A DNA stretch of 64,000 nucleotides from Massilia sp. METH4 (GTDB lineage: Bacteria > Pseudomonadota > Gammaproteobacteria > Burkholderiales > Burkholderiaceae_D): the NCBI RefSeq assembly GCF_037094685.1, contig NZ_CP146614.1, positions 62,001 through 126,000 on the forward strand. The letters are read 5' to 3'. The notes beneath the pieces are model-generated. The model ran no database searches. It saw only the letters and a program-made list of their open reading frames with translations, and was not told the origin of the DNA. The position numbers and the translations under genes were made by a program. Shown one piece after another: positions 19,105 through 63,262 of the stretch; position 1 is the stretch's first letter, and the number at the start of each line of letters is the position of its first letter.

Positions 19105-19164
19105 CTGGTGTCGGACATATTTTCCGGGCCTCATCCCGGAAAATATGTGCGACACCGGTTTTCC
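19105..19164 (+). repeat. GGTGTCnGACACC hairpin module C1
   Basis: CTGGTGTCGGACATATTTTC opens a 22-base arm whose partner ends in GTGCGACACC (one mismatch), followed by GGTTTTCCC. Member of the dispersed hairpin family described in the findings; the first half of a two-headed element. Confidence 0.85.
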
Positions 19165-19189
19165 CATGCAGCAACAGTGCCTCGGGAGA

Positions 19190-19238
19190 CAACCGGTGTC
19201 GGACACTATTTTTCTACGAAAAATAGTGTCCGACACCA
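19190..19238 (-). repeat. GGTGTCnGACACC hairpin module C2
   Basis: Perfect 20-base arms begin GGTGTCGGACAC at 19195 and close at 19237, in the opposite orientation to C1. It lies between the convergent thioredoxin-like gene and the coiled-coil protein gene. Confidence 0.85.
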
Positions 19239-19402
19239 AAGTTCGGCGGCACGGATCAAGTCCGCTCGGTCTTCACCGCTCCCTGGCATGCAGCCTGTCG
19301 AGCGCGGCGAGACAGGCCTTGGCGGAAGCCACCATGGTTTTCGCCGGATGCTGCTGACTTCGTGAGGAACGCCGGTGTCGGAGATGCAAGCGCTGCTGGC
19401 AA

Positions 19403-19428
19403 GAAAAAAGCCGGCGTGGCTGCCGGCT
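19403..19428 (-). terminator. Terminator of the coiled-coil secreted protein gene
   Basis: On the minus strand AGCCGGCAG-CCA-CGCCGGCT-type arms are followed by TTTTTTCTT, 22 bases after the stop of the gene ending at 19450. Confidence 0.8.
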
Positions 19429-19449
19429 GTTCGTGATGGAAGGGAAAGC

Positions 19450-20124
19450 TTACTTGCCCTGCCCGTGCTGCTTTGCCTTTTCCGCCTCGGCCGCCTTTTT
19501 CGCGGCCTCGTCGGCTTCGCGCTGGGCGCGCTTGGCTTCGCGTTCGGCCTTTTTCTCGGCCACGCGTTTTTGCCGCTCGGCCGCTTCGGCCTGCTTGCGG
19601 TTGTAGTCCTCGACCTTCTTCGCGCGCTCGCTCGCCTCGGCGGCATCCCGCGCGGCGCGCTGCTGTTCGCGGGCGGCGTGCTCGGCCTGGCGCTGGGCCG
19701 GCAGTGTCTTGATCGGCTGCGGGCGCGGCTTTTCCTCGGGGGTGACGCGTGGGGCCGGCGGGTTGGCGGCGCGCTTTGCGTCCTCGGCCGCGTCGCGCTG
19801 GTTGCGGTCGGTCAGTTCGCGGTCGCGCTGTTCGACGGCGCTCTTGCGCTTGAAGTAGTTCGCGTCGATCTCGATCGCGCGCAGTTCCGCCAGCCGCTCG
19901 CGGCGTTTATCCTTCGCCTTGTCCAGGCAGTTATTGACGAAGAACTTCGTGTAGCACACCTGTTCGCTCTCGGCGAATTCGGCCTCGACCGCCGCGCGGT
20001 CCTTCGCCACCTGCGCCAGCAGCGTGTCGGCCTGCTCCACCGACCCGATCGTCGCCTGCGCCAGCGCGCCACCGGCCAGCAGCAGGCCGCCCATCAACGT
20101 CAATACTTTCCCCATCATCCTCAT
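19450..20124 (-). CDS. Secreted coiled-coil protein of unknown function
   Basis: A 224-aa protein with a signal peptide (VLTLMGGLLLAGGALAQA). Its middle part has two cysteines (QVCYTKFFVNNCLDKAKDKRRERL near residues 56-80), and it ends in a long Ala/Glu/Lys/Arg-rich coiled coil (about 140-220). The CYTKFFVNNCLDKAK motif is common in uncharacterised betaproteobacterial periplasmic proteins. It begins 7 bases after the zapE stop, so it is probably cotranscribed with zapE, and it has its own terminator. Function cannot be stated. Confidence 0.8.
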   Translation of the reverse strand: MRMMGKVLTLMGGLLLAGGALAQATIGSVEQADTLLAQVAKDRAAVEAEFAESEQVCYTKFFVNNCLDKAKDKRRERLAELRAIEIDANYFKRKSAVEQRDRELTDRNQRDAAEDAKRAANPPAPRVTPEEKPRPQPIKTLPAQRQAEHAAREQQRAARDAAEASERAKKVEDYNRKQAEAAERQKRVAEKKAEREAKRAQREADEAAKKAAEAEKAKQHGQGK

Positions 20125-20131
20125 CCGTAGT

Positions 20132-21229
20132 TCAGGTCAGTGCGGCGGCGCCGCCCCGCTGTGCCTTTTCCATGTACTCGCGCGACTGCATCTCCACGAT
20201 GCGCGACACGGTGCGGTGGAATTCATTGGCCAGCATGCCCGAAGTGTACAGCTCTTCCGGCTCCACCTCGGCGGACATGATCAGCTTCACGCCCTGGTCG
20301 TAGAACACGTCGATCAGCCACGTGAAGCGGCGTGCCTCGGACGACTGGCCGGCGGACATCATCGGCACTCCGGACAATATCACGGTATGGAAACGGCTGG
20401 CGATTTCCAGGTAGTCGTTCTGCGAACGGGGACCGCCGCACAGCGTCTGGAAATCGAACCAGATCACGGTGCCGGCGCGGCGCAGCGCCGTCAGTTCACG
20501 GCCTTCGATCGTGACGTGCTTGTCTTCTTCCTGCGTGTCGGCGAGCTTGGTGAAAGCTTCGCGCAGCTTGGCGTCGGTGGCCGCATTGAGCGGCATGTAG
20601 TAGGCGTGCACCTGCTCCAGCGCGCGGCCGCGGTAGTCCACGCCCGCATCCACGTTGAGCACATCCATCTTTTCCTTCAGGAGCGCGATGGTGGGCAGGA
20701 TACGGTCGCGGTGCAGCCCGTCCGGATACAGCGTGGACGGTTCGTAGTTCGAGGTCATGATGAACGACACGCCATTGTCGTACAGCGCCTTCATCAGGTT
20801 ATACAGGATCATCGCGTCGGCCACGTCCGAGACGTGGAATTCGTCGAAGCAGATCAGCCGGTATTTCTTGGCGATCCGTTTCGCCACCTCGTCGAGCGGG
20901 TCGGCGATGCCCATCAGCTCGTCGAGCTGGATATGCACGGCGCGCATGAATTCATGGAAGTGCAGGCGCGTCTTGCGCACCACCGGCACGACCGAATAGA
21001 ACGAATCCATCAGGAACGACTTGCCGCGCCCCACGCCGCCCCACATGTACACGCCGCGTGGCGGGTCCGGGCGGTTGATCAGGCGCTTGAAGCTGTTCGA
21101 GCGCTGGGCCTTGTACTCCACCCATTCGTCGTAGCAGTGCTGCAGCCGTTCCACGGCGCGGCGCTGGGCTTCGTCGGGCTTGAAGTTGCGCTGTTCCAGC
21201 GCGTGCTGGTAAAACTCGAGGACGTTCAT
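20132..21229 (-). CDS. zapE: Cell division ATPase ZapE (AFG1 family)
   Basis: AAA-type ATPase of about 365 aa that in E. coli associates with the Z-ring under stress. Walker A is in MWGGVGRGKSFLMDSF near residue 65, and Walker B-like CFDEFHVSD is near 135. The ATG at 21229 (MNVLEFYQHAL) is preferred over an upstream in-frame codon because AFG1-type proteins begin near this motif; the ribosome binding site is weak. It follows lpd by 79 bases, the usual order at odh loci in this group. Confidence 0.92.
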   Translation of the reverse strand: MNVLEFYQHALEQRNFKPDEAQRRAVERLQHCYDEWVEYKAQRSNSFKRLINRPDPPRGVYMWGGVGRGKSFLMDSFYSVVPVVRKTRLHFHEFMRAVHIQLDELMGIADPLDEVAKRIAKKYRLICFDEFHVSDVADAMILYNLMKALYDNGVSFIMTSNYEPSTLYPDGLHRDRILPTIALLKEKMDVLNVDAGVDYRGRALEQVHAYYMPLNAATDAKLREAFTKLADTQEEDKHVTIEGRELTALRRAGTVIWFDFQTLCGGPRSQNDYLEIASRFHTVILSGVPMMSAGQSSEARRFTWLIDVFYDQGVKLIMSAEVEPEELYTSGMLANEFHRTVSRIVEMQSREYMEKAQRGGAAALT

Positions 21230-21308
21230 GAAAGATTCGCTTCGTACAAAAACGCCGGGCCGGCCAAGTGGCTCGCTTGGCCGGCCCAGGTAAGGCTTCA
21301 AGCAACAG

Positions 21309-22738
<1,430 letters not shown>

Positions 22739-22742
<4 letters not shown>

Positions 22743-23104
22743 GTGTCTGATTTCCCAATTATGTCGTTACCCGGGAGACGCTCTTCTTCCGGGACGAATA
22801 TCCACAACAGAATGTAAATCACCAGCCCGAAGCCGAACGAGATCGTGAACAACACGAACACGATGCGCCAGATCCACGACGCCACGCCGGAAGCCTTGCC
22901 GATCCCGCCGCACACGCCGCCCAGCCAGCGGTCGGCGCGCGAACGGCGCAGCCGCGAGAACTCGCTGGCCAGGTCGCCGTCACCGGCCGCGGGGGGCGGG
23001 GCGCCGTTCAGCAGGCGCTCCTTGGCGCGGGCAAACTCCGCGTCGGTCAGGGCGCCGGCCTGGTGCAACTCGTGCAGGCGGCGGATTTCGTCGGAGATGG
23101 TCAT
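22739..23104 (-). CDS. SHOCT-PspC domain membrane protein
   Basis: A 121-aa protein. The N-terminal 35 residues ([30 protein letters not shown]) form a SHOCT-type oligomerisation motif. Residues about 55-112 form a PspC domain with [16 protein letters not shown] followed by a membrane span ([29 protein letters not shown]). PspC proteins sense envelope stress in the phage-shock response of enterics; that role is only inferred here. Its stop overlaps the lpd start, so it is cotranscribed with lpd, an unexpected place for an envelope-stress protein. Confidence 0.88.
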
Positions 23105-23198
23105 GGCCGTCGGCTCCTGAGGTCGTGGGGTCAGTTCCCAGATGGGGGCTAACCACGGTTTTCACCACTGCGGCCGAACGAAGCCGAAGTGGGGGCGG

Positions 23199-23249
23199 AA
23201 AACCGGTGTCGGGCACCTTTTCGCTGCGCGAAAAGATGTCCGACACCAA
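23199..23249 (-). repeat. GGTGTCnGACACC hairpin module D
   Basis: GAAAACCGGTGTCGGGCACC pairs with GATGTCCGACACCAAGG (two mismatches in 20). A single module in the gap between odhB and the PspC gene. Confidence 0.8.
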
Positions 23250-23315
23250 GGCTGGAGCCGCAGGCTACGGCCGATTGCGGGGTACGCAGCCGGCCGGTGA
23301 TCTACCTACGCTCGA

Positions 23316-24590
23316 TTACAGGTCCAGCAGCAGGCGCGCCGGATCTTCCAGCGCTTCCTTCATCGCCACCAGGCCCAGCACGGCTTCGCGGCCGTCGATG
23401 ATGCGGTGGTCGTAGGACATCGCCAGGTAGTTCATCGGGCGGATGACGATCTGGCCGTCTTCCACCACGGCGCGGTCCTTGGTCGCGTGCACGCCCAGGA
23501 TCGCCGACTGCGGCGGGTTGATGATCGGGGTCGACAGCATGGAGCCGAAGGTGCCGCCGTTGGAGATCGAGAACGTGCCGCCGGTCAGGTCGTCCAGGGT
23601 CAGCTTGCCTTCCTTGGCCTTCGCGCCGAATTCGCCGATCTTCTTCTCGATCTCGGCGATCGTCATCTGGTCGGCGTTGCGCAGGATCGGCACCACCAGG
23701 CCGCGCGGCGAACCGACGGCGATACCGATGTCGAAGTAGCCGTGGTAGACGATGTCGTTACCGTCGACCGATGCGTTCAGGATCGGGTACTTCTTCAGGG
23801 CTGCCACGGCGGCCTTGACGAAGAAGGACATGAAGCCCAGCTTCACGCCGTGCTCTTTCTCGAACTTGTCCTTGTACTTGTTACGCAGGTCCATCACCGG
23901 CTTCATGTTCACCTCGTTGAAGGTGGTCAGGATGGCGTTGGTGGATTGCGATTCGACCAGGCGCTCGGCGATACGGGCGCGCAGGCGGCTCATCGGCACG
24001 CGCTCTTCCGGACGGTCGCCCAGGTTGAGCGTGACCGGTGCGGCCACTTTCTGCAGGGCCGGCTTGGCGGCGGCAGCAGGAGCGGCGGGTGCCGGTGCGG
24101 CGGCTGCGGGTTTGGCAGATGCGGCGGAAGCGGCCAGGGCATCGCCCTTGGTCACGCGGCCATCCTTGCCGGAGCCGGTCACGTCGGAAGCGGACAGGCC
24201 TTTCTCGGACAGGATCTTGGCGGCGGCCGGCATGGCCACGTCGCCCTTCGAGCCACCGGTGGCGGCTGCCGGCGCTGCGGCAGGTGCCGGTGCGGCCGCG
24301 GTTTCCACCGGGGCTGCCGTCACGGGGATCGGCGAAACTTTTGCGGTGCCTTCCGTATCGATGATGGCGATCACTTCATCGGCAACGACGGTCGCGCCAT
24401 CGTTCTTGATGATCTGCACGATCACGCCGGCGGCCGGTGCGGGAAGTTCCAGGACCACTTTGTCGGTTTCGATGTCGATCAGGTTCTCGTCGCGCGCCAC
24501 GGTGTCGCCGACCTTCTTGTGCCAGGCCAGCAGGGTCGCTTCAGCGACGGATTCCGACAGTTGTGGAACTTTGACTTCGATTTGTGCCAT
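23316..24590 (-). CDS. odhB: 2-oxoglutarate dehydrogenase E2, dihydrolipoyl succinyltransferase
   Basis: E2 core of the 2-oxoglutarate dehydrogenase complex, 424 aa. The N-terminal lipoyl domain has the modified lysine in [12 protein letters not shown] near residue 43, followed by an Ala/Pro-rich linker, an E3-binding domain ([29 protein letters not shown] near 123-150) and the catalytic domain. The active site is in [14 protein letters not shown] near the C-terminus (histidine of the DHR-x-x-DG motif). It follows odhA by 76 bases on the same strand. Also called sucB. Confidence 0.96.
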
Positions 24591-24666
24591 TTGTTGTTAC
24601 TCCGTATTCGATAGATGCGTAGAGGCCGCGCAGACCTCCTCGGAGTCCGCGCGGCTTGCCTTGCTT

Positions 24667-27522
24667 TTACTTGGTCAGGATGAAGCCCTTCAGCTTCGAG
24701 AACGCCGTTTCCAGCAGCTCTTTCTGCTGGGCGTAGTGCTTGTCGTAGTAGCCGACAGCCGGCGAGGCGGAAGCCGGACGGCCGGCATACGCCAGGCGCT
24801 GGCCCGCTTCCATCGACTCGAAGATGTTGTGCTGGATCTGGAACCATGGACCCTGGTTCTGCGGCTCGTCCTGCGCCCACACCACTTCGGTGGCGGCCGG
24901 GAACTTCTTCAGTTCGGCGGCGAATGCCTTGTGCGGGAACGGGTACAGCTGTTCGACACGGATGATGGCCGTATCGGTCTGGCCGCGGGTCTTGCGGGCA
25001 TTGGCCAGGTCGTAATACACCTTGCCGGAGCAGGCGATCACGCGCTTGACCTTCTTCGCATCGATCTTGTCGTCCACTTCGCCGATCACGGTCTGGAACG
25101 CACCCTTGGCCAGGTCGTTCAGCGGCGAGCCGGCATCCTTGTTGCGCAGCAGCGACTTCGGCGTGAGCACGACGAGCGGCTTGCGGAACTGGCGCACCAT
25201 CTGGCGGCGCAGCAGGTGGAAGATCTGCGCGGCCGTCGTCGGCTGCACCACCTGCATATTGTTCTCGGCGCACAGCTGCAGGAAGCGTTCCGGGCGGGCG
25301 GAGGAGTGCTCCGGACCCTGGCCTTCATAGCCGTGCGGCAGCAGCATCACGAGGCCCGAAGCGCGGCCCCACTTCACTTCGCCGGACGAGATGAACTGGT
25401 CGATCACCACCTGGGCGCCGTTCACGAAGTCGCCGAACTGGGCTTCCCAGATCGTCAGCGTGTTCGGCTCGGCGGTCGAGTAACCGTATTCGAAGCCCAG
25501 CACCGCTTCTTCCGACAGCACGGAGTCGATGACGGTGAACGGTGCCTGGTTGTCGGACACGTTCTGCAGCGGCACGTAGGTGCCGGCATCCCAGCGTTCG
25601 CGGTTCTGGTCGTGCAGCACCGCGTGGCGGTGCGTGAACGTGCCGCGGCCGGCGTCCTGGCCGGTCAGGCGCACGGCGTAGCCGGACGAGACCAGCGACG
25701 CGTAGGCCAGGTGTTCGCCCATGCCCCAGTCCAGGTTCAGTTCACCTTTGCCCATGTTGGCGCGGTCGGCCAGTACTTTTTCCACCAGCGAGTGCACCTT
25801 GAAGCCTTCCGGCACGGTGGTGATGCGGGTAGCCAGGCGCTTCAGTTCCGTGAGCGGCACGGCGGTATCGGCCGCGTCGGTCCACTTGCGGTTCAGGAAC
25901 GGCAGCCAGTCGACGGCGAACTTGTTCTTGAAGTTCGAGATGACCGGGTCGACGGTGTGCTTGCCGGCGTCCATGGCGGCGCGGTACGCGGCCACCATCT
26001 GGTCGCCGCCGTCGGCCGGGATCACGCCCTGGGCCGCCAGCTTGTCGGCGTACAGGCGGCGGGTGCCCGGGTGTTGCGCGATCTTCTTGTACATCAGCGG
26101 CTGCGTCAGCGCCGGCGTGTCCTGCTCGTTGTGGCCCAGCTTGCGGTAGCAGATGATGTCGACCACGATGTCCTTCTGGAACTGCGCGCGGTAGTCCAGG
26201 GCGATCTGCGAAGCCAGCACGACCGCTTCCGGATCGTCGGCGTTCACGTGCAGCACCGGCGCCTCGATCATCTTGACGACGTCGGTGGCATAGATCGTCG
26301 AACGCGCGTCGCGCGGGTCGGACGTGGTGAAGCCGATCTGGTTGTTGATCACGACGTGCACCGTGCCGCCCGTGCCATAGCCGCGGGTCTGCGCCAGGTT
26401 CAGCGTTTCCATCACCACGCCCTGGCCGGCGAATGCCGCGTCGCCGTGCACCAGGATCGGCAGCACCTGCGCGCCCTGGGTGTCGCCGCGGCGGTCCATG
26501 CGCGCCTTGACGGAACCTTCGACCACCGGATTGACGATTTCCAGGTGCGACGGGTTGAACGCCAGCGACAGGTGGACGGGGCCACCGGCGGTGGAGATGT
26601 CGGACGAGAAGCCCTGGTGGTATTTCACGTCGCCGGCCGGCAGGTCGTCGCCGTGCTTGCCTTCGAATTCCTCGAACAGGTCCTTCGGTGCCTTGCCCAG
26701 GGTGTTGACCAGCACGTTCAGGCGGCCACGGTGGGCCATGCCGATCACGATTTCCTGCACGCCCTTTTCGCCGGCGCGCTGGATGATCTCATCCATCGAG
26801 GCGATGAACGTTTCGCCGCCTTCCAGCGAGAAGCGTTTCTGGCCCACGTACTTGGTGTGCAGGTAGCGCTCGAGGCCTTCGGCCGCGGTCAGGCGTTCCA
26901 GGATGTGCTTTTTCTTTTCCGGCGAGAAGTTCGGCGTGGAGCGGATCGATTCCAGGCGTTCCTGCAGCCAGCGCTTCTCGGCCGGATCGGAGATGTACAT
27001 GAATTCCGCGCCGATGGAGCGGGTGTACGTTTCGCGCAGGTAGTTCAGCAGGTCGCGCAGCGACGCGGTTTCCGGGCCGAAGTACGTGTTGCTGATGTTA
27101 AATACGGTGTCCAGGTCGGCGTCGGTGAAGCCGTAGGAGGCAGGGTCCAGTTCCGGGATGGCCGGGCGTTCCTGGCGCTGCAGCGGGTCGAGGTTGGCCC
27201 AGCGAGAGCCCAGGTAGCGGTAGGCTGCGATCAGCTGGGTGGCGGCCACGCGCTTGCGGCCCATTTCGACATCGGCGGTCGCGGTCACGGTCCGGATCGG
27301 GCCGGCTTTCGCGCGCTCGGCAAACGAGGCGATCACGGAGGAGTGGTTGACGTCGGGCTTGTTGGAACCGTCGACGGCAGGCACGTGCTGCATGGCGTCG
27401 AAATAAGCGCGCCAGTTATCCGGCACCGAGCCGGGGTTTTCCAGGTACGCTTCGTAGAGTTCTTCTACGTACGGCGCATTCCCACCAAACAGGTAGGAGT
27501 TGGACGTCAGTTGCTGCATCAT
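24667..27522 (-). CDS. odhA: 2-oxoglutarate dehydrogenase E1
   Basis: Thiamine-diphosphate-dependent decarboxylase that starts the 2-oxoglutarate to succinyl-CoA reaction, 951 aa. The N-terminal YVEELYEAYLENPGSVPDNWRAYF is the E2-binding segment. Further motifs are GMAHRGRLNVLVN near 265, the ThDP/Mg motif GDAAFAGQGVV near 355 followed by NNQIGFTT, and the transketolase-type pyrimidine domain (ADRANMGKGELNLDWGMGEHLAYASL near 600). It starts at ATG 27522 after GGTGAGC. First gene of odhA-odhB-(PspC)-lpd-zapE. Also called sucA. Confidence 0.97.
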   Translation of the reverse strand: MMQQLTSNSYLFGGNAPYVEELYEAYLENPGSVPDNWRAYFDAMQHVPAVDGSNKPDVNHSSVIASFAERAKAGPIRTVTATADVEMGRKRVAATQLIAAYRYLGSRWANLDPLQRQERPAIPELDPASYGFTDADLDTVFNISNTYFGPETASLRDLLNYLRETYTRSIGAEFMYISDPAEKRWLQERLESIRSTPNFSPEKKKHILERLTAAEGLERYLHTKYVGQKRFSLEGGETFIASMDEIIQRAGEKGVQEIVIGMAHRGRLNVLVNTLGKAPKDLFEEFEGKHGDDLPAGDVKYHQGFSSDISTAGGPVHLSLAFNPSHLEIVNPVVEGSVKARMDRRGDTQGAQVLPILVHGDAAFAGQGVVMETLNLAQTRGYGTGGTVHVVINNQIGFTTSDPRDARSTIYATDVVKMIEAPVLHVNADDPEAVVLASQIALDYRAQFQKDIVVDIICYRKLGHNEQDTPALTQPLMYKKIAQHPGTRRLYADKLAAQGVIPADGGDQMVAAYRAAMDAGKHTVDPVISNFKNKFAVDWLPFLNRKWTDAADTAVPLTELKRLATRITTVPEGFKVHSLVEKVLADRANMGKGELNLDWGMGEHLAYASLVSSGYAVRLTGQDAGRGTFTHRHAVLHDQNRERWDAGTYVPLQNVSDNQAPFTVIDSVLSEEAVLGFEYGYSTAEPNTLTIWEAQFGDFVNGAQVVIDQFISSGEVKWGRASGLVMLLPHGYEGQGPEHSSARPERFLQLCAENNMQVVQPTTAAQIFHLLRRQMVRQFRKPLVVLTPKSLLRNKDAGSPLNDLAKGAFQTVIGEVDDKIDAKKVKRVIACSGKVYYDLANARKTRGQTDTAIIRVEQLYPFPHKAFAAELKKFPAATEVVWAQDEPQNQGPWFQIQHNIFESMEAGQRLAYAGRPASASPAVGYYDKHYAQQKELLETAFSKLKGFILTK

Positions 27523-27832
27523 TCTTGCTCACCTTTCTTCGCGCTTCGCGAGGTTGGGGCGGGTTATACAAACCTTCCGCGACACGGCCTGACCGGTTAG
27601 CGGATCGCACATCAAGTTGTGGGGGGAAGGACCTCTTTGGTTGCCCGAAAGACAATCGACCTACGAGCTTCCATAAATAGCCACCTAGCATAGCACGCTG
27701 CGTTGAGATGGAACAACCACCAACGAGTTAATCGAACGTTTCTTCCGTCCGGCATGGGCGGCGCGCCGGCGCAAGATAGACAGCATGTTCTAGATCATTT
27801 ATTCTACTTCCGTGCCCACCAGGAAGAGCGCC
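27523..27832. other. Divergent intergenic region odhA / BlaI-type gene
   Basis: These 310 bases must hold both promoters. No convincing sigma-70 box pair was identified for either gene. The stretch from 27770 to 27815 is AT-rich (TAGATCATTTATTCTAC) and could be the BlaI-type gene's own promoter and operator. No coding sequence was recognised. Confidence 0.5.
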
Positions 27833-30441: not shown

Positions 30442-30464
30442 GTGCTGGCCGCACAGGCGTTACC

Positions 30465-30526
30465 CTGGTGTCAGACACCTTTTCCGGGCGCTTCATCCGG
30501 AAAAGGTGTCTGACACCGGTTTTCCC
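30465..30526 (+). repeat. GGTGTCnGACACC hairpin module E1
   Basis: Perfect 21-base arms GGTGTCAGACACC-TTTTCCGG and their complement, opened by CCTG and followed by GGTTTTCCC. Begins 24 bases after the stop of the GGDEF/EAL gene. Confidence 0.88.
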
Positions 30527-30547
30527 TCGAGGTCTCGATGCCGGACG

Positions 30548-30610
30548 AGAAAACCGGTGTCGTACACCTTTTCCTGGATGAGGCACCCAGGAAAAGGTGT
30601 ACGACACCAG
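30548..30610 (-). repeat. GGTGTCnTACACC hairpin module E2
   Basis: Perfect 22-base arms GGTGTCGTACACC-TTTTCCTGG, inverted relative to E1 and facing it through the GAAAACC side. It lies 14 bases from the stop of the convergent antiporter gene. Confidence 0.88.
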
Positions 30611-30623
30611 GCGGAACAGCCCC

Positions 30624-44619: not shown

Positions 44620-44638
44620 TTGTTGGCCGCAGATCCGC

Positions 44639-44684
44639 GGGTGTCGGACACCGGGTTCATCGGTGTGCGACACCGGATTTCTCC
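44639..44684 (+). repeat. GGTGTCnGACACC hairpin module F1
   Basis: GGTGTCGGACACCG pairs with CGGTGTGCGACACC (one mismatch), followed by GGATTTCTCC. First half of a two-headed element downstream of the acnA terminator. Confidence 0.8.
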
Positions 44685-44750
44685 GCAGGCATCCCGTGCA
44701 TGAGGGCCGGGCAGCCGGGTTTCCCTCGCTGCAGGGTAGATGCCTCACGG

Positions 44751-44791
44751 GAAAACTGGTGTCGTACACCATGAATGATGTACGACACCAG
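44751..44791 (-). repeat. GGTGTCnTACACC hairpin module F2
   Basis: GAAAACTGGTGTCGTACACC pairs with ATGTACGACACC (one mismatch in 15), inverted relative to F1. Confidence 0.82.
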
Positions 44792-44892
44792 GCATGCGCC
44801 TGCTCATCCGTTCGGGAGTGTCGGACAGCCCCCGGCGAATCAACTACAATACGTCTGATAAGTTTTTCACCACTACCGAGATTGCTAGCGCT

Positions 44893-48861: not shown

Positions 48862-48961
48862 TGTGGAATCCGTTGGGTTTGGATGGCGTTATTGTCCTTG
48901 GTTTGGGGCGTTAACGCAAAAGGCGGGCCACCTGGCCCGCCTTGTCGAGGCGCCCGATCCG

Positions 48962-49011
48962 CTGGTGTCGGACATCCAGGCAAAGCCTGAGGTCCGACAC
49001 CGGTTTTCCTC
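48962..49011 (+). repeat. GGTGTCnGACACC hairpin module G
   Basis: GGTGTCGGACATCCAGGC pairs with GCCTGAGGTCCGACACC (one bulge), followed by GGTTTTCCTC. A single module between the 3' end of the catalase gene and the carboxypeptidase gene. Confidence 0.82.
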
Positions 49012-56018: not shown

Positions 56019-56756
56019 CTACGGCATGCGCCCCGTGCGCAGCGCGTGCCCCCAATCGGGCCGGCCGTTGCCCTCGGCCAGCTGCGCCGCGAATTCGTAG
56101 TCGTACGGCACGGCGATGTGCTCGACGAGCCAGCCGGCGGCCGTGCGCTCGACGATGGCGTATTTCGCCTGTGGCGTGAAGTTCTGCGACTGGTGCGGTA
56201 AGGGTTGGTCGTGATTGAACGCCTGCAGCCCCACGCTGCCGGGATTGACAATGAGGCGCCCGTCGTCCAGCAGCATGCTGCGCGGCACGTGCGTGTGGCC
56301 ACACAGGATCAGCGAGGCCAGTGCATCCCCGGCGCGTTCCAGCACTTCGTCGTGGGTGGCGCGGCGCATGCCGGCCTCGGTGACCGTTTCGGTCCAGTAG
56401 ACCAGGTCCGACGAGGGTGTGCCATGCACCAGCAGCACATCGTCCGTCAGCTTCAGCGTGGCCGGCAGCGAATGCAGCCAGGCCCGCTGCACCTCGGTGA
56501 TCTGCTCATGCGCGTAACGGTCGGACGTCCCCATCTTTTCCGGCACGTGCATCAGCACTTGCCGCTCATGGTTGCCCGCGATGGTGGGCATGTCCAGTGC
56601 CATCAGCCGTTCGGCCGTCTCGCGCGGCTGCAGCGGGCCGGAGACGATGTCGCCCAGGTTCACTGTCACGGTCGCGCCGCGCCGTTCGATATCGGCCAGC
56701 ACCGCCTCCAGTGCGCCGAGGTTGCCATGGATATCCGAGATTGCCGCGATCTTCAT
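56019..56756 (-). CDS. Calcineurin-like metallophosphoesterase (YfcE/MJ0936 type)
   Basis: 245-aa metal-dependent phosphoesterase with all five motifs: SDIHGNLGALEAVL near residue 7, NLGDIVSGP near 33, AGNHERQ near 60, VHGTP near 109 and CGHTHVPRS near 151. These proteins hydrolyse phosphodiesters in vitro; physiological substrate unknown. No neighbour suggests a pathway. Confidence 0.92.
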   Translation of the reverse strand: MKIAAISDIHGNLGALEAVLADIERRGATVTVNLGDIVSGPLQPRETAERLMALDMPTIAGNHERQVLMHVPEKMGTSDRYAHEQITEVQRAWLHSLPATLKLTDDVLLVHGTPSSDLVYWTETVTEAGMRRATHDEVLERAGDALASLILCGHTHVPRSMLLDDGRLIVNPGSVGLQAFNHDQPLPHQSQNFTPQAKYAIVERTAAGWLVEHIAVPYDYEFAAQLAEGNGRPDWGHALRTGRMP

Positions 56757-56902
56757 CCCATTCCCCTTTTGTTGGACCTTCCGCTATTTTGATCGTCTCC
56801 CGCTAACTTGCAAAATGTTAGTTTATTTACAACCAACTAACTCTTCCGTATCATCTGTCGGCTGAGCTACCTCGATCATTCCTCCCCCCTTCCGGAAAAC
56901 AA

Positions 56903-57547
56903 ATGAGCTATAAAAACGCGCTGATCGCCCTCGCATTCACGGCTGTGTTGCCGGCTGCCATGGCGGAAAACCTGAAAATGACCGTGACGGCCACGGGTAC
57001 CTTATTCAATTCCCTGGACTCCGTCGAATTCGGCTGGCAGGGAGCGGACACGCCGTTCCATGTCGAGTGGAGCGCGGTGTACGACACGGACCAGATTCGT
57101 CCGAGCGGCACCTCGGCTCCCGCCCTGTCCGGGGAACTCAAGATCACTATCGGCAACCGCCTCTACCTGGACGAGCTGTATCAGTACACCGGCGTATCGA
57201 TGTATCGCGCGACGTGGGACCAGGCCCAATCGCCAACAGTGGTGTCGCCGACATTCTGGAGCGAGGCGACCGGGCGCTCCATCGACGTCAGCCTGGCCTT
57301 CCCCGCCCAGGTGTTGCCATTCGCTCTACCGACCGCCCCGATGTCGGTCTCCTACACCGGGCCGCGCGTCGGAGAATCGAAGATCACCATGTGGGACAGC
57401 CTGGGCTCACAGGACAACGGCGTCATCTTGCGTACTTCCAGCCTGGGCATGACCGTCAGCCCGGTACCCGAACCCGGAACCTATGCCATGCTGCTCGCCG
57501 GCCTGGCGGCGCTGGGCTTTGCGGCAAGGCGCCGCAACACCGCCTGA
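56903..57547 (+). CDS. PEP-CTERM sorting-domain protein
   Basis: 214-aa exported protein with a signal peptide (LIALAFTAVLPAAMAE) and C-terminal VPEPGTYAMLLAGLAALGFAARRRNTA. The body is beta-rich (LKMTVTATGTLFNSLDSVEFGW) with no known domain. ATG 56903 has a weak ribosome binding site (GGAAA). Unlinked to an exosortase. Confidence 0.88.
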   Translation: MSYKNALIALAFTAVLPAAMAENLKMTVTATGTLFNSLDSVEFGWQGADTPFHVEWSAVYDTDQIRPSGTSAPALSGELKITIGNRLYLDELYQYTGVSMYRATWDQAQSPTVVSPTFWSEATGRSIDVSLAFPAQVLPFALPTAPMSVSYTGPRVGESKITMWDSLGSQDNGVILRTSSLGMTVSPVPEPGTYAMLLAGLAALGFAARRRNTA

Positions 57548-57657
57548 CGATACCCCACGGGTTCGTGCCATGTGAAGAACAAGGGCGGAGCAGATAAGCG
57601 GGCGGCGTCCGCCCGCTCGCGATGCTACAGTAGCCCATCATTCACGAGGAACTGGCG

Positions 57658-57903
57658 ATGGAATTCGAATACCGGGGTTACACGATCCGCATCGAGGCCT
57701 ATGAGGACACGGCCGCCGTGCACGATCACGCGTGGCACTGCACCATCAATGTCACCGGGCACGTCGACACCTGGCGCGACCGCTTCACTGCCGAGCAGCG
57801 GTTCGGCAGCCTTGCCGCCGCCGAGCAAGGCGCCGCCGCCATTGCGCGCGAATATGTCGACGCGAAGCTGGCCGGCTCCGGGCAGGGAAACGCTCAGGTA
57901 TAG
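57658..57903 (+). CDS. Small hypothetical protein
   Basis: 81-aa protein (MEFEYRGYTIRIEAYEDTA; WHCTINVTGHV; FGSLAAAEQGAAAIAREYVDAKLAG). No signal peptide and no known family recognised. A GAGGA ribosome binding site precedes the ATG, and the codon pattern resembles neighbours, so it is probably real. It overlaps the end of the convergent membrane-protein gene by about 10 bases. Confidence 0.65.
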   Translation: MEFEYRGYTIRIEAYEDTAAVHDHAWHCTINVTGHVDTWRDRFTAEQRFGSLAAAEQGAAAIAREYVDAKLAGSGQGNAQV

Positions 57904-58388
57904 GCCAGCAGCCGGCCGCAGGCGATCACGCCGAACCACAGCAGCAGCGACAGTGCCGCGTGCGCCTTTGCGCCCGCCGGCGCAGGCGTTGCCACGTCCC
58001 ACGCAGCCACCCGGCGATAGACGCCAAGGTGAAAGGCCAGCGCGTTTACGCCCGCCAGCGCGATCAGCGCCAGCTTCAGCCGGAAGGTGGGGTTGTCGAT
58101 GAAATCGGCGGGCTGGGTGGCGAACATCAGCAGGCCGGCCGGCACCACCAGCAGCAGACTTGCCACCGCCCACGGCAGCAGGTGCGCGCCCAGTCCGCGT
58201 ACAGGGAGGTTGCGCGCACAACCCAGCACGCGCAGGTCGAACATCGCTACGGCACCCACGAGCACCGCGAAGCCGGCGATGTGGACCGTTTCGACGATCG
58301 GATACAGCCACACGCCGTCGCGCATTGCCGCCGCCACGGGCGTGGCGGCCAGCCAGGCTGCCCAGGTGGCGAGCGCACCGCCCGCCAT
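57894..58388 (-). CDS. DUF6644-like membrane protein
   Basis: 164-aa protein with about four membrane spans (IAGFAVLVGAVAMFDLRVLG, LLPWAVASLLLVVPAGLLMF, LKLALIALAGVNALAFHLG, LLLWFGVIACGRLLAY). The ETVHIAGFA histidine and the VGAVAMFDLRVLG segment match an uncharacterised family that I recall as DUF6644. Its start overlaps the stop of the preceding gene (58388), so it is paired with it. Confidence 0.75.
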   Translation of the reverse strand: MAGGALATWAAWLAATPVAAAMRDGVWLYPIVETVHIAGFAVLVGAVAMFDLRVLGCARNLPVRGLGAHLLPWAVASLLLVVPAGLLMFATQPADFIDNPTFRLKLALIALAGVNALAFHLGVYRRVAAWDVATPAPAGAKAHAALSLLLWFGVIACGRLLAYT

Positions 58389-58732
58389 CAGCGCAGCTCG
58401 GTCGTCTTGTCCCTGATGGTGATGCGCTCGGCGCGCAGTTCGTCACCCTTGCTGCGGTGCGGGTAGCCGACCACGGTGGCCTGCCCGCCCGCGGCAAGCG
58501 CTTCCTTCGGCAAGCCGCGGCTTTCCATGCGCGACGGCGGCGCCAGGACCACGTGCCAGGTCTTGTCCGCCGTTTTCAGCGCGACGTGGCCGTGCGGCTG
58601 CGAGTAGCCGCTTTCGGTGATGGTGCCGGTGAGGGTGAGGGGTTTGTCGGCGTCGTATTCGCTCCAGCCATGGTGGGCAAAAGCAGTGGCGGCGGCGCCG
58701 AGGGCCAGGGCAACGGCGAGGGATCGCTTCAT
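58388..58732 (-). CDS. Small secreted DUF6152-like protein
   Basis: 114-aa protein with a signal peptide (SLAVALALGAAATAFA) and the motif HHGWSEYDADKPLTLTGTITESGYSQPHG, typical of small periplasmic proteins usually annotated DUF6152 and found beside DUF6644 membrane proteins. It may bind copper through His residues, but that is speculation. ATG 58732 follows GGAG; longer upstream frames were rejected. Confidence 0.8.
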   Translation of the reverse strand: MKRSLAVALALGAAATAFAHHGWSEYDADKPLTLTGTITESGYSQPHGHVALKTADKTWHVVLAPPSRMESRGLPKEALAAGGQATVVGYPHRSKGDELRAERITIRDKTTELR

Positions 58733-59097
58733 GGGTCTCTCCAGCTGTGCGTATGGCCGAACTGTAAACGAACGCGTGAGAAACGCAAGCGCGCCCTTAC
58801 GGCGCCGCAGGTGAGGTGCGAACGAGCGGCCGCGCGTTTCAACGCGCTTGCCATTCCCTGGATGAACTGTCGCGGTACTGCCGTTCATGTTGCATTGAGG
58901 GAATACTGTGCGTAACTACAGCATATCGGAGGAGATATCGTGACTTGGTCCTGCCACAACGGTGGGCTGTTCGTGCACATAGGCGCATGAATATTTTCCG
59001 GTCGAGCCACCTCGCGACCACGCAGGTGTATGTTGATCGTAGCAGCGCGTCACACATGGTGCACTGCGAGGCCGACCATCGATACAGTGGAGGGTAT
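58733..59097. other. Intergenic region before a low-GC PEP-CTERM gene
   Basis: 365 bases containing the promoter region of both flanking divergent genes. The right part (from about 58890) is AT-rich compared with the rest of the window and may be the edge of an acquired segment. No coding sequence was recognised. Confidence 0.5.
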
Positions 59098-59676
59098 ATG
59101 CTAAGGCAACTTGTTTTGTCGGGCTGCTTGTTCGCGAGTATGGGTGCCACACATGCAAGCGAACGAATTTACACATTCCGATGGACTGGGTTCATGGAAT
59201 ATCTTGGCGCGTGGGGCGACGTTGCAGTTTGGCATCCTAATGTCACGTTCGGCGGTACCTTCCGGGGCGAAGATACCAATAGTGACGGCTTCATTATGCT
59301 GGATGAAATTTCGAGCTTGATTGTTGACACGCCATTCCCGCCCGACTTCGTCGTTGGCTGCCCTCCGGCGGGTGTCGACGGCATTGGCCCCACCGATTGC
59401 AAGTTTTCAGCGTTCAGCTACCAGATAGGCGGCCCTCTGACTTTCAGCGCTGCGTATCAAATCACAACGGGTGGCTATCCGCTCTATGAGTATTCCTTCT
59501 GGCCAGAACATTCTATAACGATGTACCCTGCGAATTTAGGGGACGGTTACACATACAGTTTTGTGGATGCCACAACATTCGACATTTCCTCTGCTGTGCC
59601 CGAGCCCAGCACGTACGCCATGCTGCTGGGCGGCCTAGGCCTTATTAGCTGCGCAGCGCGCTGGCGAAAAGGGTAA
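59098..59676 (+). CDS. PEP-CTERM sorting-domain protein, lower GC
   Basis: 192-aa exported protein with a signal peptide (LRQLVLSGCLFASMGATHA) and a C-terminal VPEPSTYAMLLGGLGLISCAARWRKG. It contains a cysteine pair (VVGCPPAGVDGIGPTDCKF) not seen in the other PEP-CTERM proteins here. ATG 59098 follows GTGGAGG. The base composition is visibly lower in GC than neighbours, suggesting recent transfer. Adjacent to an IS3 remnant and a tRNA gene. Confidence 0.87.
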   Translation: MLRQLVLSGCLFASMGATHASERIYTFRWTGFMEYLGAWGDVAVWHPNVTFGGTFRGEDTNSDGFIMLDEISSLIVDTPFPPDFVVGCPPAGVDGIGPTDCKFSAFSYQIGGPLTFSAAYQITTGGYPLYEYSFWPEHSITMYPANLGDGYTYSFVDATTFDISSAVPEPSTYAMLLGGLGLISCAARWRKG

Positions 59677-59678
59677 TC

Positions 59679-59894
59679 TCACTCTTCGGCCACCTGCGCC
59701 AGATGCGGCTCGTTATTCAGCGCTCGGCAGGCTTCGAATCGCCCGACCAAGCGCTGGTACTTCCGCACGACTCGTCCTGTATCTGCGGCGAGGCTGAGAA
59801 TGTCGCCAGCCACCTCTGGCACAATCGGATACCCGACGCTCGTAGTGGAGCGCGTTCGCCGCCCATCTACGTTACTGAGACGATGCCAAGACAT
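59679..59894 (-). CDS. Short reading frame, doubtful (possible gene fragment)
   Basis: 71-aa frame (VVRKYQRLVGRFEACRALNNEPHLAQVAEE at its end) directly after the PEP-CTERM gene. Its amino-acid composition looks protein-like, but I recognise no family, and it sits in a region with an IS remnant, so it may be the 3' end of a lost gene. Confidence 0.2.
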   Translation of the reverse strand: MSWHRLSNVDGRRTRSTTSVGYPIVPEVAGDILSLAADTGRVVRKYQRLVGRFEACRALNNEPHLAQVAEE

Positions 59895-59979
59895 CTTCGA
59901 CTATATCGAGATGTTCTACGATCCGAAACGACGGCACCGCTTCAGCGATGCCATGTCGCCGGTGGCGATTCAACATTGA
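59881..59979 (+). pseudogene. IS3-family transposase (OrfB) remnant, C-terminal end
   Basis: The frame reads DIFDYIEMFYDPKRRHRFSD then MSPVAIQH and a stop. This is the characteristic end of IS3-family integrase-type transposases (D-x-F-x-Y-I-E-x-F-Y-N-x-x-R-R-H, then SP-x-x-F). Only about 30 residues remain; no upstream transposase or matching inverted repeats were found. Confidence 0.7.
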
Positions 59980-60084
59980 TGACGCGCATCGCTAGCTTAC
60001 CAAGTGTGACAGTGCTTGCCGGGATCTCGGCACCTGAGGAGTGCCGAGGCTAGACGACTACATTTCGGGAGGCCAGAAATGACA

Positions 60085-60133
60085 AACCCACCATCCGAAA
60101 ATTAGACAACTGTCTAATATACAGTGGTGGGTT
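60085..60133. repeat. Nested inverted repeat 35 bp from tRNA-Pro
   Basis: Outer arms AACCCACCA (60085-60093) and TGGTGGGTT (60125-60133) enclose inner arms TTAGACA (60102-60108) and TGTCTAA (60111-60117). It lies downstream of the tRNA gene and next to the IS remnant. Confidence 0.8.
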
Positions 60134-60167
60134 ATGTACAGCAAATGCCGTATGTCATTGAATCTAC

Positions 60168-60244
<77 letters not shown>

Positions 60245-60369
60245 ACGAGTGGCGCATTATAGCAGCCAGGTTGAGTTTTTGCCATGCCATTTTGCACGTG
60301 AGAAGGCTTGCCTGTCCGCAGCAGTGCCGCTCCGCCGCCGGAATCATGGACGGCGCTAGAATTGCGGGC

Positions 60370-61203
60370 ATGACGGACCCAATCGACCCTATCCTGCTCG
60401 ACCGCGCGGCGGAACTGATCCGCCAGGCCGACGGCCTGGTCGTGGCCGCCGGCGCCGGCATGGGCGTCGATTCCGGCTTGCCGGATTTTCGCGGCAACGA
60501 AGGCTTCTGGCGCGCCTACCCGGCCCTCGGCGCAGCGCGCATCGATTTCGCCAGCGCCGCCTCCCCTGCCACGTTCCATGAGAACCCCGGCCTGGCCTGG
60601 GGTTTCTACGGCCACCGCCTGGCCCTCTACCGGAACACGATTCCCCACGCGGGCTTCGCGCTGCTGAAGCGCTGGGGGGAACGCATGCCGCATGGCTGCC
60701 ACGTCTTTACCAGCAATGTGGACGGCCAGTTCCAGAAGGCCGGCTTCGACCCGAAGCGCATCCACGAATGCCACGGTTCGATCCACCACCTGCAATGCCT
60801 GGAACCGTGCGGCGACGCGATCTGGCCGGCGGACGATTTTGCGCCGTCGGTCGATGAACGGGCTTGCCGGCTCGCGAACGCGGCGCCGCGCTGCCCGCAC
60901 TGCGGCGGCCTGGCGCGGCCTAACATACTGATGTTCGGCGACTGGGGCTGGATCGAGCGGCGCAGCGCGCGGCAGGGGGCGCGCCTGGAGCGCTGGCTGG
61001 ACGGGGTGGAGCGGCCGGTGGTCATCGAGCTGGGCGCCGGCACGGCGATTCCCTCGGTGCGGCACTTCAGCCACCAGGTGATCCGGCGCGGCGGCCGGCT
61101 CGTGCGGATCAATCCGCGCGAGCCGGAAGTGCCCACGCGGCATGACGTGGGACTGGCGAGCGGCGCGCTCGACGGCCTGTCGGCCATCGCCGCGCGCCTG
61201 TGA
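60370..61203 (+). CDS. SIR2-family NAD-dependent protein deacylase (sirtuin)
   Basis: 277-aa sirtuin. The NAD-binding AAGAGMGVDSGLPDFRGNEGFW is near residues 26-47. The TQNID-like motif is FTSNVDGQFQKAG near 112, and the catalytic histidine is in ECHGSIHHLQC near 136. Zinc cysteines are present as CxxxxC and CPHC (CLEPC, CPHCGG). It removes acyl groups from lysines while consuming NAD. ATG 60370 starts the sirtuin fold; longer in-frame sequence upstream overlaps the tRNA gene and was rejected. Stand-alone gene. Confidence 0.9.
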   Translation: MTDPIDPILLDRAAELIRQADGLVVAAGAGMGVDSGLPDFRGNEGFWRAYPALGAARIDFASAASPATFHENPGLAWGFYGHRLALYRNTIPHAGFALLKRWGERMPHGCHVFTSNVDGQFQKAGFDPKRIHECHGSIHHLQCLEPCGDAIWPADDFAPSVDERACRLANAAPRCPHCGGLARPNILMFGDWGWIERRSARQGARLERWLDGVERPVVIELGAGTAIPSVRHFSHQVIRRGGRLVRINPREPEVPTRHDVGLASGALDGLSAIAARL

Positions 61204-61912
61204 TCACACGTAGCGGACGGCGATATCGGTCAGGCCATCGACATGGCCCGCCAGCACCTGGCCGCGTTGCACGGCGCCCACGCCCTCGGGCGTGCCCGTG
61301 AAAATCAGGTCGCCCGGCTGCAGCGTGAAATAGGTGGAGAGATTGGCGATCGTTTCGGGGATCGACCAGATCATGTCGGCGACGTGGCCCGACTGTTTCG
61401 TTACGTCGTCCACTTGCAGGGTGATCGCCGCCTGCCCGATGGCGGGCACGCCGGCGGCGGGATGCACGGTGCCGACCGGCGCCGAAAAATCGAACGCCTT
61501 GCCGATTTCCCAGGGACGGCCCGCTTCCTTCATCTTGGCTTGCAGGTCGCGGCGCGTCATGTCGAAGCCGACTGCATAGCCGAAGACATGCGATGCCGCG
61601 TCTTCCACGGCAATGTTCGTGCCCCCCCTTGCCGATCGCGACCACCAGTTCGCATTCATGGTGAAAATCGCTCGTGAGCGGCGGGAACGGCAGCTCGGCC
61701 GTGGTGCCCGGCGCCACCGCCACGACGGCGTTCGCATCGCCCGGCTTGGTGAAGAAGAACGGCGGTTCGCGGTTCGGGTCGGAACCCATTTCGCGTGCAT
61801 GGCCGGCATAGTTGCGGCCTACGCAGTAGACGCGGCGGACGGGGAAGCGGGCGTCGCTGCCGGCAATCGCCAGCGCGGCCGCCTGGTGCGGCGGGAAGAC
61901 GTAGTTGGTCAT
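61204..61912 (-). pseudogene. Fumarylacetoacetate hydrolase-family gene with a one-base frameshift
   Basis: The N-terminal part (MTNYVFPPHQ; VYCVGRNYAGHAREMGSDPNREPPFFF; HECELVVAIGKGG) and the C-terminal part (TNIAVEDAASHVFGYAVGFDMTRRDLQ; WEIGKAFDFSAPVG; PGDLIFTGTPEGVGAV) belong to one FAH-family hydrolase, such as fumarylpyruvate hydrolase. They lie in different frames. The break is at a run of seven G on the minus strand (61622-61628) where GKGGTNIA needs six. If one G is removed, a normal protein of about 235 aa results. Either a recent frameshift, phase-variable tract or a sequencing error. Confidence 0.88.
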
Positions 61913-61956
61913 GGTGCTCCGGTTGATCCTCTGTTAGATGCTCGATTGCCTGGAAG

Positions 61957-62568
61957 TCAGCTGAACAACAGGGGCCGCAACGCCATGCGGAACGAGTCGA
62001 TCAGCATTTCCGCATTCATTTCCGGGTTGTGCACGGCGCGCACGGGCAGCCCCTGGAACATCGTGATGATAACGTTCATGCGCGCTTCCAGCACGGCGTC
62101 GTCGACCGGCAGGCCGTGTTTCATCCGCCCCGCCTTCAGGATCTTGCGGAACTGTTCGCGCGTGCGGCGGTCCGCGTCGCGCGCCACCGCCGCGATCTTC
62201 GGGTTGCGCGACGCTTCGGCCGTGATTTCCAGCGGCAGGATCCAGGTCTGCGGATCGAGGTCGTCACGCACGCTGCGCGGCACTTCGTCCAGCAGCGCCT
62301 GCAGCGGATCGTCCTTCAATTCCAGGTCGCGCATCAGCGCGGACACGCGCTCCACGTTTTCCTCGACGAACGCGGCAATGATCGCATCCTTGCTGTCGAA
62401 ATAGTTATAGATATGGCCGGCGCTCATCCCGGCCGCCTTCGAGATCTCGGCCATGCTCGCACCATGGAAGCCGCTGCGGCCAAAGCACGCGGCCGCAGCA
62501 TCGAGCACCTGGCGGCGCCGGTGGCGCGCCTTTTCCGGATCGTGATGGCGTTTTTCGGTATTGCTCAT
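61957..62568 (-). CDS. TetR-family transcriptional regulator
   Basis: 203-aa regulator with an N-terminal helix-turn-helix (QVLDAAAACFGRSGFHGASMAEISKAAGMSAGHIYNYFDSKDAIIAAF, residues 20-67) and an all-helical ligand domain. It could control the efflux channel gene at the window end or the FAH-family gene 45 bases downstream; neither is certain. Divergent from the GNAT gene, 126 bases apart. Confidence 0.92.
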   Translation of the reverse strand: MSNTEKRHHDPEKARHRRRQVLDAAAACFGRSGFHGASMAEISKAAGMSAGHIYNYFDSKDAIIAAFVEENVERVSALMRDLELKDDPLQALLDEVPRSVRDDLDPQTWILPLEITAEASRNPKIAAVARDADRRTREQFRKILKAGRMKHGLPVDDAVLEARMNVIITMFQGLPVRAVHNPEMNAEMLIDSFRMALRPLLFS

Positions 62569-62693
62569 ACTGCCTTTCAGGGGTGCTGGCGGCTGCGCTG
62601 GCGGCTGGCCACCCCGGGTTTGTCAAACGGATCGCCCGTGCGTGCGCACGGATGCTATCATTTTCTACGACCGCTACTTGCGCAAGGACGACC

Positions 62694-63188
62694 ATGTCTA
62701 CCAGGACCTCCCGCACGATCGAAATGCGGCCGGCGGAAGCCGCCGACCAGGCCTTCATGGAGCAGCTCTACGCGAGCACCCGCACCGCCGACCAGCGGAT
62801 GGGCGCCTGCGATGCGCACACGGAGGCGCTGCTGATGGCCCTGCAATGCCGCGCGCGCCAGACGCAGCTGCACGCGCTCTACCCCTATGCCGACGCCGCC
62901 GTCATCGTCGAGCGCGAGCGCCCCATCGGCGCCCTGCACGTCAATTACGGCTCCGACGAAATCCGCATCCTCGACATCAGCCTGCTCCCGGAATGCCGCA
63001 GCCGCGGCATCGGCCTCGGGCTGCTGCGCAGCCTGCAAGCCCAGGGTGTGCGCATGCGCGTGCCCGTGCGGCTGGACGTGCTGCCCGGCACCCGCGCGCA
63101 GCGCTTGTTCCAGCGCTGCGGCTTTACGCTCAACGGAGCGAATGGGCTGTTTCTGTGTATGGAGTGGACGCCGCCGTTGTTGACTTGA
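62694..63188 (+). CDS. GNAT-family N-acetyltransferase
   Basis: 164-aa acetyltransferase. The acetyl-CoA binding motif is in ISLLPECRSRGIGLGLLRSLQAQG near residues 93-116 (R-x-x-G-x-G/A pattern RSRGIG). It begins IEMRPAEAADQAFMEQLYASTR and ends FQRCGFTLNGANGLFLCMEW, both typical. ATG 62694 follows AAGGAC. The substrate is unknown. Confidence 0.9.
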   Translation: MSTRTSRTIEMRPAEAADQAFMEQLYASTRTADQRMGACDAHTEALLMALQCRARQTQLHALYPYADAAVIVERERPIGALHVNYGSDEIRILDISLLPECRSRGIGLGLLRSLQAQGVRMRVPVRLDVLPGTRAQRLFQRCGFTLNGANGLFLCMEWTPPLLT

Positions 63189-63221
63189 CCCGGCTACTCA
63201 GCCGTTCGGACTGCCGGTTTT

Positions 63222-63262
63222 GAAAACCGGTGTCAGACACCCTTGCAGGGTGTCTGACACCA
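63222..63262 (-). repeat. GGTGTCnGACACC hairpin module H (minimal form)
   Basis: Perfect 15-base arms GGTGTCAGACACCCT with a 3-base loop, preceded by GAAAACC and ended by CACCAG. It lies between convergent GNAT and efflux-channel genes. Confidence 0.88.

Follow-up and report, generated by a model that had tools for sequence, protein, structure and literature searches.

Short hairpin repeats behind genes of Massilia sp. METH4 very probably constitute a lineage-specific family of repetitive extragenic palindromes (REPs) resembling REPINs, which occur singly and as doublets, are non-autonomous and are spread by a cognate REP-associated tyrosine transposase (RAYT) of the TIRYT type encoded between two of the copies. 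The stretch analysed, referred to as the window, spans 64,000 nucleotides (positions 62001-126000) of the 6.88-Mb single-contig genome of this soil bacterium (G000). An earlier examination of its letters alone by a model, the sequence-only reading, had picked out nine hairpins at six sites, all close to the 3′ end of at least one gene; its implied placing of the bacterium in the Oxalobacteraceae was correct. All nine were recovered by model matches and a hairpin scan, and each of the six sites has at least one hairpin 16-69 bp from a stop codon in our own gene calls. The window contains 22 occurrences of GGTGTCNNACA where 0.34 would be expected, a count reached in none of 100 shuffles. Several occurrences fall in each hairpin, and one (36474) is isolated, its partner arm being absent in the hairpin scan.

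The repeat unit

The repeat is polar, a property missed by the sequence-only reading. A GAAAACC motif, termed the foot, stands on one side of a hairpin running from GGTGTCNNACACC to GGTGTNNGACACC, and appears as GGTTTTC on the opposite strand. The full unit is GAAAACC followed by GGTGTC NN ACACC, a variable inner stem and loop, and GGTGT NN GACACC; the next base was A in 27 of 40 copies. Among these 40 copies, preselected for at least six of seven foot matches, the successive foot bases were conserved in 40 (G), 40 (A), 39 (A), 33 (A), 39 (A), 40 (C) and 39 (C).

Inner stems had been described as differing in sequence while staying paired, and alignment of the 40 copies bears this out. Pairing was seen in 95.8% of cells, with double changes at 14 of 19 pairs; both sides were changed in 71 cells, compared with a shuffled mean of 16.1, and 0 of 500 shuffles reached the observed number. 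These covariation figures count copies, not independent events. The two variable bases, said to change together on both arms, do match in seven of the nine window hairpins, while those at 19107 and 44640 are mismatched (GC versus GG). In a set of 96 distinct copies, from which matches below 36 bits and out-of-register cores were removed and to which the 40 foot-selected copies were added, the combinations GG/GG (25 copies), GC/GG (12) and GT/GT (12) recur, and pair 12 is C.A in 30. Because matched and mismatched variants both recur, the covariation may largely be inherited by the copying of whole elements; the covariation itself stands, and the earlier deduction that the hairpin must matter is weaker than it was put. 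Mismatches on the strand with the foot 5′ comprise 49 C.A and 8 G.T, from which no strand preference is concluded, since 30 of the 49 C.A sit at pair 12.

Copy number, gene context and doublets

Genome-wide, the core pattern matched 746 times, versus 60 for the reversed pattern. We counted 61 copies, fragments included, in 60 evenly spaced 20-kb tiles (1.2 Mb), having collapsed 128 model matches by hand to 69 places and excluded eight that belong to other repeat families. Extrapolation gives about 350 copies in the genome, past the few dozen expected of a dispersed family in the sequence-only reading. Copy counts here rest on the tiles and on exact patterns, the covariance model having also matched genomes with other repeat families (26 of 74 genomes).

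Gene context was assigned with our own gene caller, seeded from codon-position GC. Copies are not scattered at random within genes: 66 of 70 (61 from tiles and 9 from the window) are intergenic, 34 of them in convergent, 29 in co-directional and 3 in divergent gaps. The remaining four fall within gene calls, each at a predicted 5′ end, where starts may have been over-called. In a control of 40,000 random positions, 85% fell in genes; among the intergenic remainder, 14% were convergent and 27% divergent. Collapsed to 43 sites, the copies comprise 21 convergent, 16 co-directional, 2 divergent and 4 inside; the same DNA has 84 convergent gaps longer than 60 bp in all. In co-directional gaps, orientation relative to transcription is balanced (15 versus 14).

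Doublets, also overlooked at first, are a regular arrangement. The 96 copies include 34 neighbour pairs less than 150 bp apart, 26 tail-to-tail, 6 with tails outward and 2 in tandem. Tail-to-tail pairs have 34-44 bp between cores in 21 of 26 cases, with a mode of 39, and in 17 doublet spacers compared the feet are conserved and the middles are not. This layout is that of the RAYT gene with its flanking repeats, minus the gene.

A RAYT gene between two copies

Four METH4 genes match PF01797. One of them, at C1:349813-350445, fulfils the earlier prediction of a RAYT with the same flanks: GGTTTTCTCTTGAGCTC lies upstream, adjoining a full hairpin, and its complement GAGCTCAAGAGAAAACC downstream, where an IS1111-like insertion sequence (IS) splits the hairpin from its foot. 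The protein scored 38 bits with PF01797 (cut-off 23) and 66.5 bits with NCBIfam REP_Tyr_transpos, below the cut-off of 80. It has the motifs NHVH, WE and YIEANP, and in 45 aligned homologues N59, H60 and Y120 are invariant and H62 is conserved in at least 90%. The AlphaFold model has a predicted local distance difference test score (pLDDT) of 90.6, and the PDB entry that it matches best is 4er8, in which TnpAREP is bound to a REP hairpin. A profile search of the PDB returned seven matches, among them ISDra2 TnpA and 4er8; a single-sequence PDB search and a PHROGs search returned none. Comparison with the orthologue in G158, a related genome, gave nonsynonymous and synonymous divergences (dN and dS) of 0.17 and 1.43. 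The three other Y1 genes of METH4 (L031, L032 and L034) adjoin other repeats, of the GGGGACTGTCCCC, TGTCACTGGGGTCTGACCC and GGGGTCAGACCCC + GGGACAGGG types.

Distribution of the repeat and its RAYT in relatives

Exact matches to foot plus core number 160 in METH4, 77 in G171, 67 in G207, 64 in G158, 20 in G147, 4 in G162, 3 in G154 and 1 in G133, and none was found in the other 66 of the 74 genomes of the genus; the family is thus abundant in five of the 74. In a family-level sample of 145 genomes, foot plus core occurred only in G000, G133, G058 and G042, with single matches in two genomes outside the genus. When 84,980 species genomes, a set that may leave out METH4 and genomes near it, were scanned for GAAAACCGGTGTCNNACACC, 76 stretches were found, 49 of them in Pseudoduganella records (43 in P. 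umbonata, 3 in P. flava, 2 in P. buxea and 1 in P. lurida). The other 27 were mostly one per organism, the exception being one Actinobacteria metagenome-assembled genome with several. This genome, AC_5 (L292, L304, L310, L340 and others), has repeated GAAAACCGGTGTCNGACACCGGTTTTC palindromes, several of them after CTTGAC, which resemble an operator or a repeat unrelated to the present family.

The two RAYTs most similar to that of METH4 in the genus, those of G158 (74% identical) and G171 (75 and 77% in the two frames into which it is broken), have the GGTGTC repeat on both sides and lie near greB and spoT. We built a tree of 43 RAYTs from among the matches listed, excluding the METH4 Y1 gene of L032. 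The GGTGTC-flanked RAYTs of G000, G158 and G171 form one clade (support 100/97), which nests in a group (99/98) with three RAYTs flanked by GGTGACAG. Repeat-type labels were assigned by hand from motif counts in the flanks, some from one side of the gene only; one G147 RAYT (G147c) was labelled GGGTCAGACC despite one GGTGTC repeat, and G160a, G190 and G183 were omitted as ambiguous or empty. Mapped on the remaining 40 of 43 RAYTs, the 10 REP types need 11 changes, whereas shuffled labels needed at least 23 (0 of 300 at 11 or fewer). Repeat type therefore co-segregates with RAYT clade.

RAYTs of several clades lie near greB and/or spoT (in G000, G158, G171, G147, G207, G106, G154 and G160, with G000 and G160 placed by one neighbour gene), with several repeat types alongside. 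A single old RAYT locus that switched specificity was rejected as an explanation, as these eight RAYTs are not one clade (approximately unbiased test, p 1.5e-5; the group was defined by place after the tree had been seen). We therefore read the locus as a hotspot with replacement. Nor is one foot common to all REP types of the genus: 86 flanks were A-rich but not uniform.

Occupancy of homologous gaps was read for two genes, in 30 of the 74 genomes each; all 30 were searched for motifs, and the first eight were inspected by eye. The 3′ gap of the aconitase gene holds GGTGTC doublets in G000 and G171 and other repeat types in G147, G207, G162, G168, G155 and others; none of the searched repeat motifs was found there in G158. 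Behind sucB, GGTGTC elements in the same orientation and with different inner stems occur in five genomes (G000, G147, G207, G158 and G171), the remaining genomes having other types or none of the searched motifs.

An insertion sequence within the repeat

The IS beside the RAYT gene is a 1,409-bp IS110-family element (C1:348380-349788; NCBIfam IS110, 363 bits) sitting at the junction of the RAYT's downstream foot with its hairpin. It has subterminal inverted repeats, ATGGACGCCCC...GGGGCGTCCAT, and a noncoding region of ~280 nt after the transposase gene tnp, two features for which we class it as IS1111-like. Seven copies were detected through the left end (the six others at L342-L347). All seven directly follow a GAAAACC foot, and to their right is an intact GGTGTC hairpin in six and a degenerate one in the seventh. 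The noncoding region contains GCGACACC, the complement of GGTGTCGC, and then AAACCG, as in the foot strand. This order is the one reported for IS1111 guides (PMC11187229). Five of the six intact targets start with GGTGTCGC, a beginning found in 26% of copies (post hoc test, p 0.006). In predicted fold stability the region did not exceed shuffled sequences (z -0.03). From these short matches we predict that the noncoding region yields a guide RNA matching the REP target.

A related IS in G171, with 85-86% identity across the 121 bp of the left end, has four copies, three of which were read (L349, L353 and L355). All three sit between AAAACC and GGTGACAG[GA]CACC, and the noncoding region, otherwise similar, has CTGTCACC at the position homologous to GCGACACC. 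Hairpins of the GGTGACAG type are also present in METH4 (nine in the tiles), and none of its seven IS copies lies in an intact one. Distant relatives in G207 (L350, L354 and L356), with 76-89% identity over parts of the left end and mostly at contig ends, follow GGC, not AAAACC, in the three loci read (left sides only), which counts against a general rule. Weak IS matches in G194 and G144 were not assigned to a REP.

We lean, by a little over even odds, towards a two-layer mobile system, one layer being RAYTs that would amplify REP families and replace them, the other an IS1111-like, RNA-guided element that would follow through changes of its guide, the REPs providing renewable safe landing pads. 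Our confidence in it is lowered because the distant G207 relatives sit behind other sequences.

Origin of the repeats

Spread by the cognate RAYT is favoured by the copy number, the gene context, the spaced doublets, the flanking of the gene, the partition of repeat types among RAYT clades and the distribution among genomes. By analogy with the RAYT family (PMC8266576), the enzyme would bind a single strand in which the folded hairpin has the foot, GAAAACC, on its 5′ side, cut beside the foot and paste new copies; cleavage, movement and choice of strand are all inferred. Copies landing in genes or promoters would be lost and those behind stop codons would survive, so that the simplest reading of the 3′-end location is that harmless insertions persist.

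Several observations weigh against this explanation. Neither transposition nor excision was observed, and the repeat lacks the canonical GTAG or CGTC foot. The RAYT frame of G171 is broken in two, yet that genome has 77 copies, and of the four RAYTs read in G207 (67 copies) and the four in G147 (20 copies), none has the repeat on both sides. A G147 RAYT near greB/spoT, which is not the orthologue, has the GGTGTC repeat on one side; in G207 this was the case for 0 of 4. Regular doublets hold just 44 of 96 copies, and their members are only slightly nearer the consensus than other copies (0.82 versus 1.21 differences, p 0.06), a weak form of what is predicted for REPINs. Replacement of the RAYT is our own explanation for the G207 and G147 copies, which are possibly orphan REPs left behind by it.

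The hairpins could instead be selected as transcription terminators or mRNA 3′-end stabilisers, one being needed per gene. Their position at 3′ ends and enrichment in convergent gaps would fit such a role, and by eye there is no other terminator before the hairpin after the stops at 19089, 30441, 30624 and 63188; a hairpin followed by GGTTTTC also resembles a weak intrinsic terminator. On the other hand, the repeats are evenly split in orientation in co-directional gaps, and ahead of the REP the aconitase gene is followed by a GC hairpin and T run of its own, which G158 retains without a REP. In homologous gaps relatives carry different repeat families or lack repeats, and the family is abundant in just five of the 74 genomes of the genus. 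Given the even orientation and the separate aconitase terminator, a terminator role is unlikely as the main cause. Some hairpins, at sites with no other terminator seen, may in addition end or protect transcripts.

We give little credence to the proposal that the repeats are derivatives, like miniature inverted-repeat transposable elements, mobilised by another element such as the IS1111-like IS found inside them. All seven IS copies do follow the repeat's foot, but they stand between foot and hairpin as if inserted into a pre-existing repeat, the IS ends (ATGGACGCCCC) differ from those of the repeat, and in G158, with its 64 exact copies, nothing matches the left end of the IS at an E threshold of 0.001. 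Least probable of all is that selection, and not transposition, spread these sequences as sites bound by a regulator or by a protein that structures the chromosome. The high copy number, the conserved palindromic core and reports of protein-bound REPs elsewhere (PMC2817692) would suit this idea, but the avoidance of divergent (promoter) gaps, the RAYT flanking and co-segregation with RAYT clade, and the differing occupancy between species speak against it.

Features of the window

The hairpins are listed in Table 1. Another hairpin, at 2892-2942 (within 2888-2951), has a GGGGTCGGACCCC core and belongs to a related but different repeat family; it too went unremarked in the sequence-only reading. 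A sucA RNA motif (Rfam RF01070) lies at 27526-27610, upstream of the sucA gene. At gathering scores, Rfam matched only this motif and a tRNA in the window, with no match at the hairpins.

Table 1 Hairpins of the GGTGTC family in the window (window positions; R1, repeat model score).
Feature	Span	Strand	Score and context
REP hairpin 19107-19156	19103..19165	-	R1 66.7 bits; GAAAACC foot on right; first half of tail-to-tail doublet; stop codon 18 bp before
REP hairpin 19195-19237	19186..19241	+	R1 69.7 bits; degenerate foot (GACAACC) on left; second half of doublet, core gap 38 bp
Single REP hairpin 23205-23247	23196..23251	+	R1 69.4 bits; downstream of sucB
REP hairpin 30467-30517	30463..30526	-	R1 73.6 bits; first half of doublet, convergent genes either side
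REP hairpin 30556-30608	30547..30612	+	R1 71.2 bits; second half of doublet, core gap 38 bp
Short REP hairpin 44640-44674	44636..44683	-	R1 47.4 bits; downstream of aconitase gene, beyond its own terminator-like hairpin
Short REP hairpin 44758-44789	44749..44793	+	R1 52.1 bits; tail-to-tail with 44640-44674 hairpin, core gap 83 bp
Single REP hairpin 48964-49001	48960..49010	-	R1 46.4 bits; downstream of catalase gene
Single REP hairpin 63229-63261	63220..63265	+	R1 54.9 bits; convergent genes either side

Comparison with known systems

The sequence-only reading had likened the hairpins to REPs and bacterial interspersed mosaic elements (BIMEs) and assigned them to no named family. The likeness is sound, as these are high-copy intergenic palindromes with a cognate RAYT, and no described family matching the GGTGTC repeat was recognised among the open-licence PMC papers listed, judged from titles, abstract openings and passages (the search did not reach figures, supplements or subscription articles). 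With REP/BIME elements and their RAYTs (REPtrons) the family shares short palindromes in hundreds of intergenic copies, inverted pairs, a RAYT flanked by its own repeat (in METH4, G158 and G171), one repeat family per RAYT, and lineage specificity (PMC2817692, PMC6006769). It differs in having a GAAAACC foot in place of the GT[AG]G or CGTC of those sources, and is for this reason outside the GTAG and CGTC superfamilies, and in its long, near-perfect stems with variable inner sequence.

The transposase is a RAYT of the Y1 HuH kind. Compared by eye, its motifs resemble those printed for subclass 2.1 (NHVH, W[EQ], YIELNP; PMC6006769), which that survey equates with most of the TIRYTs of PMC3733652 and for which it reports no REP-like neighbours. 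TIRYTs (TIRtrons) likewise have a Y1 transposase between inverted, possibly self-complementary repeats that recur in the genome as dimers or clusters (PMC3733652). The GGGGWSAS motif found in some, not all, of their terminal inverted repeats (TIRs) is replaced by GGTGTC here, and TIR families are described as moderately abundant, as against ~350 copies here (PMC3733652); the GGGGACAG- and GGGGTCAG-type repeats beside other RAYTs of the genus do fit GGGGWSAS. Inverted doublets with a preferred spacing are shared with the REPINs of Pseudomonas fluorescens (PMC3116915), from which the present family differs in its ~39 bp between cores, in the 44 of 96 sampled copies in regular doublets and in a weak difference in doublet conservation. 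The general kind is thus already known; what is new is a REP with cognate RAYT that has a different foot and a different RAYT subclass. A high-copy hairpin REP family is thereby tied to a RAYT with the motifs of a subclass surveyed as lacking REP-like neighbours, and the genus appears to be one where different RAYT clades each carry their own repeat, which makes RAYT/REP specificity and turnover directly testable.

IS110 and IS1111 elements that target REPs include IS621 of E. coli (PMC11208160), ISPa11 of P. aeruginosa (PMC11187229) and ISPpu9 of P. putida (PMC8450116). The METH4 element resembles them in its fixed insertion point in a REP. Like those of the IS1111 type, it has an extended noncoding stretch downstream of tnp, and short segments that match the two target strands follow the order reported for IS1111. 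Its target, the foot/hairpin junction of the GGTGTC family, is new, and the related IS of G171 differs again in having another guide-like match at the same place and in sitting in another REP family. Two insertion sequences with matching natural differences in putative guide and target offer a ready system for studying how RNA-guided elements change their targets.

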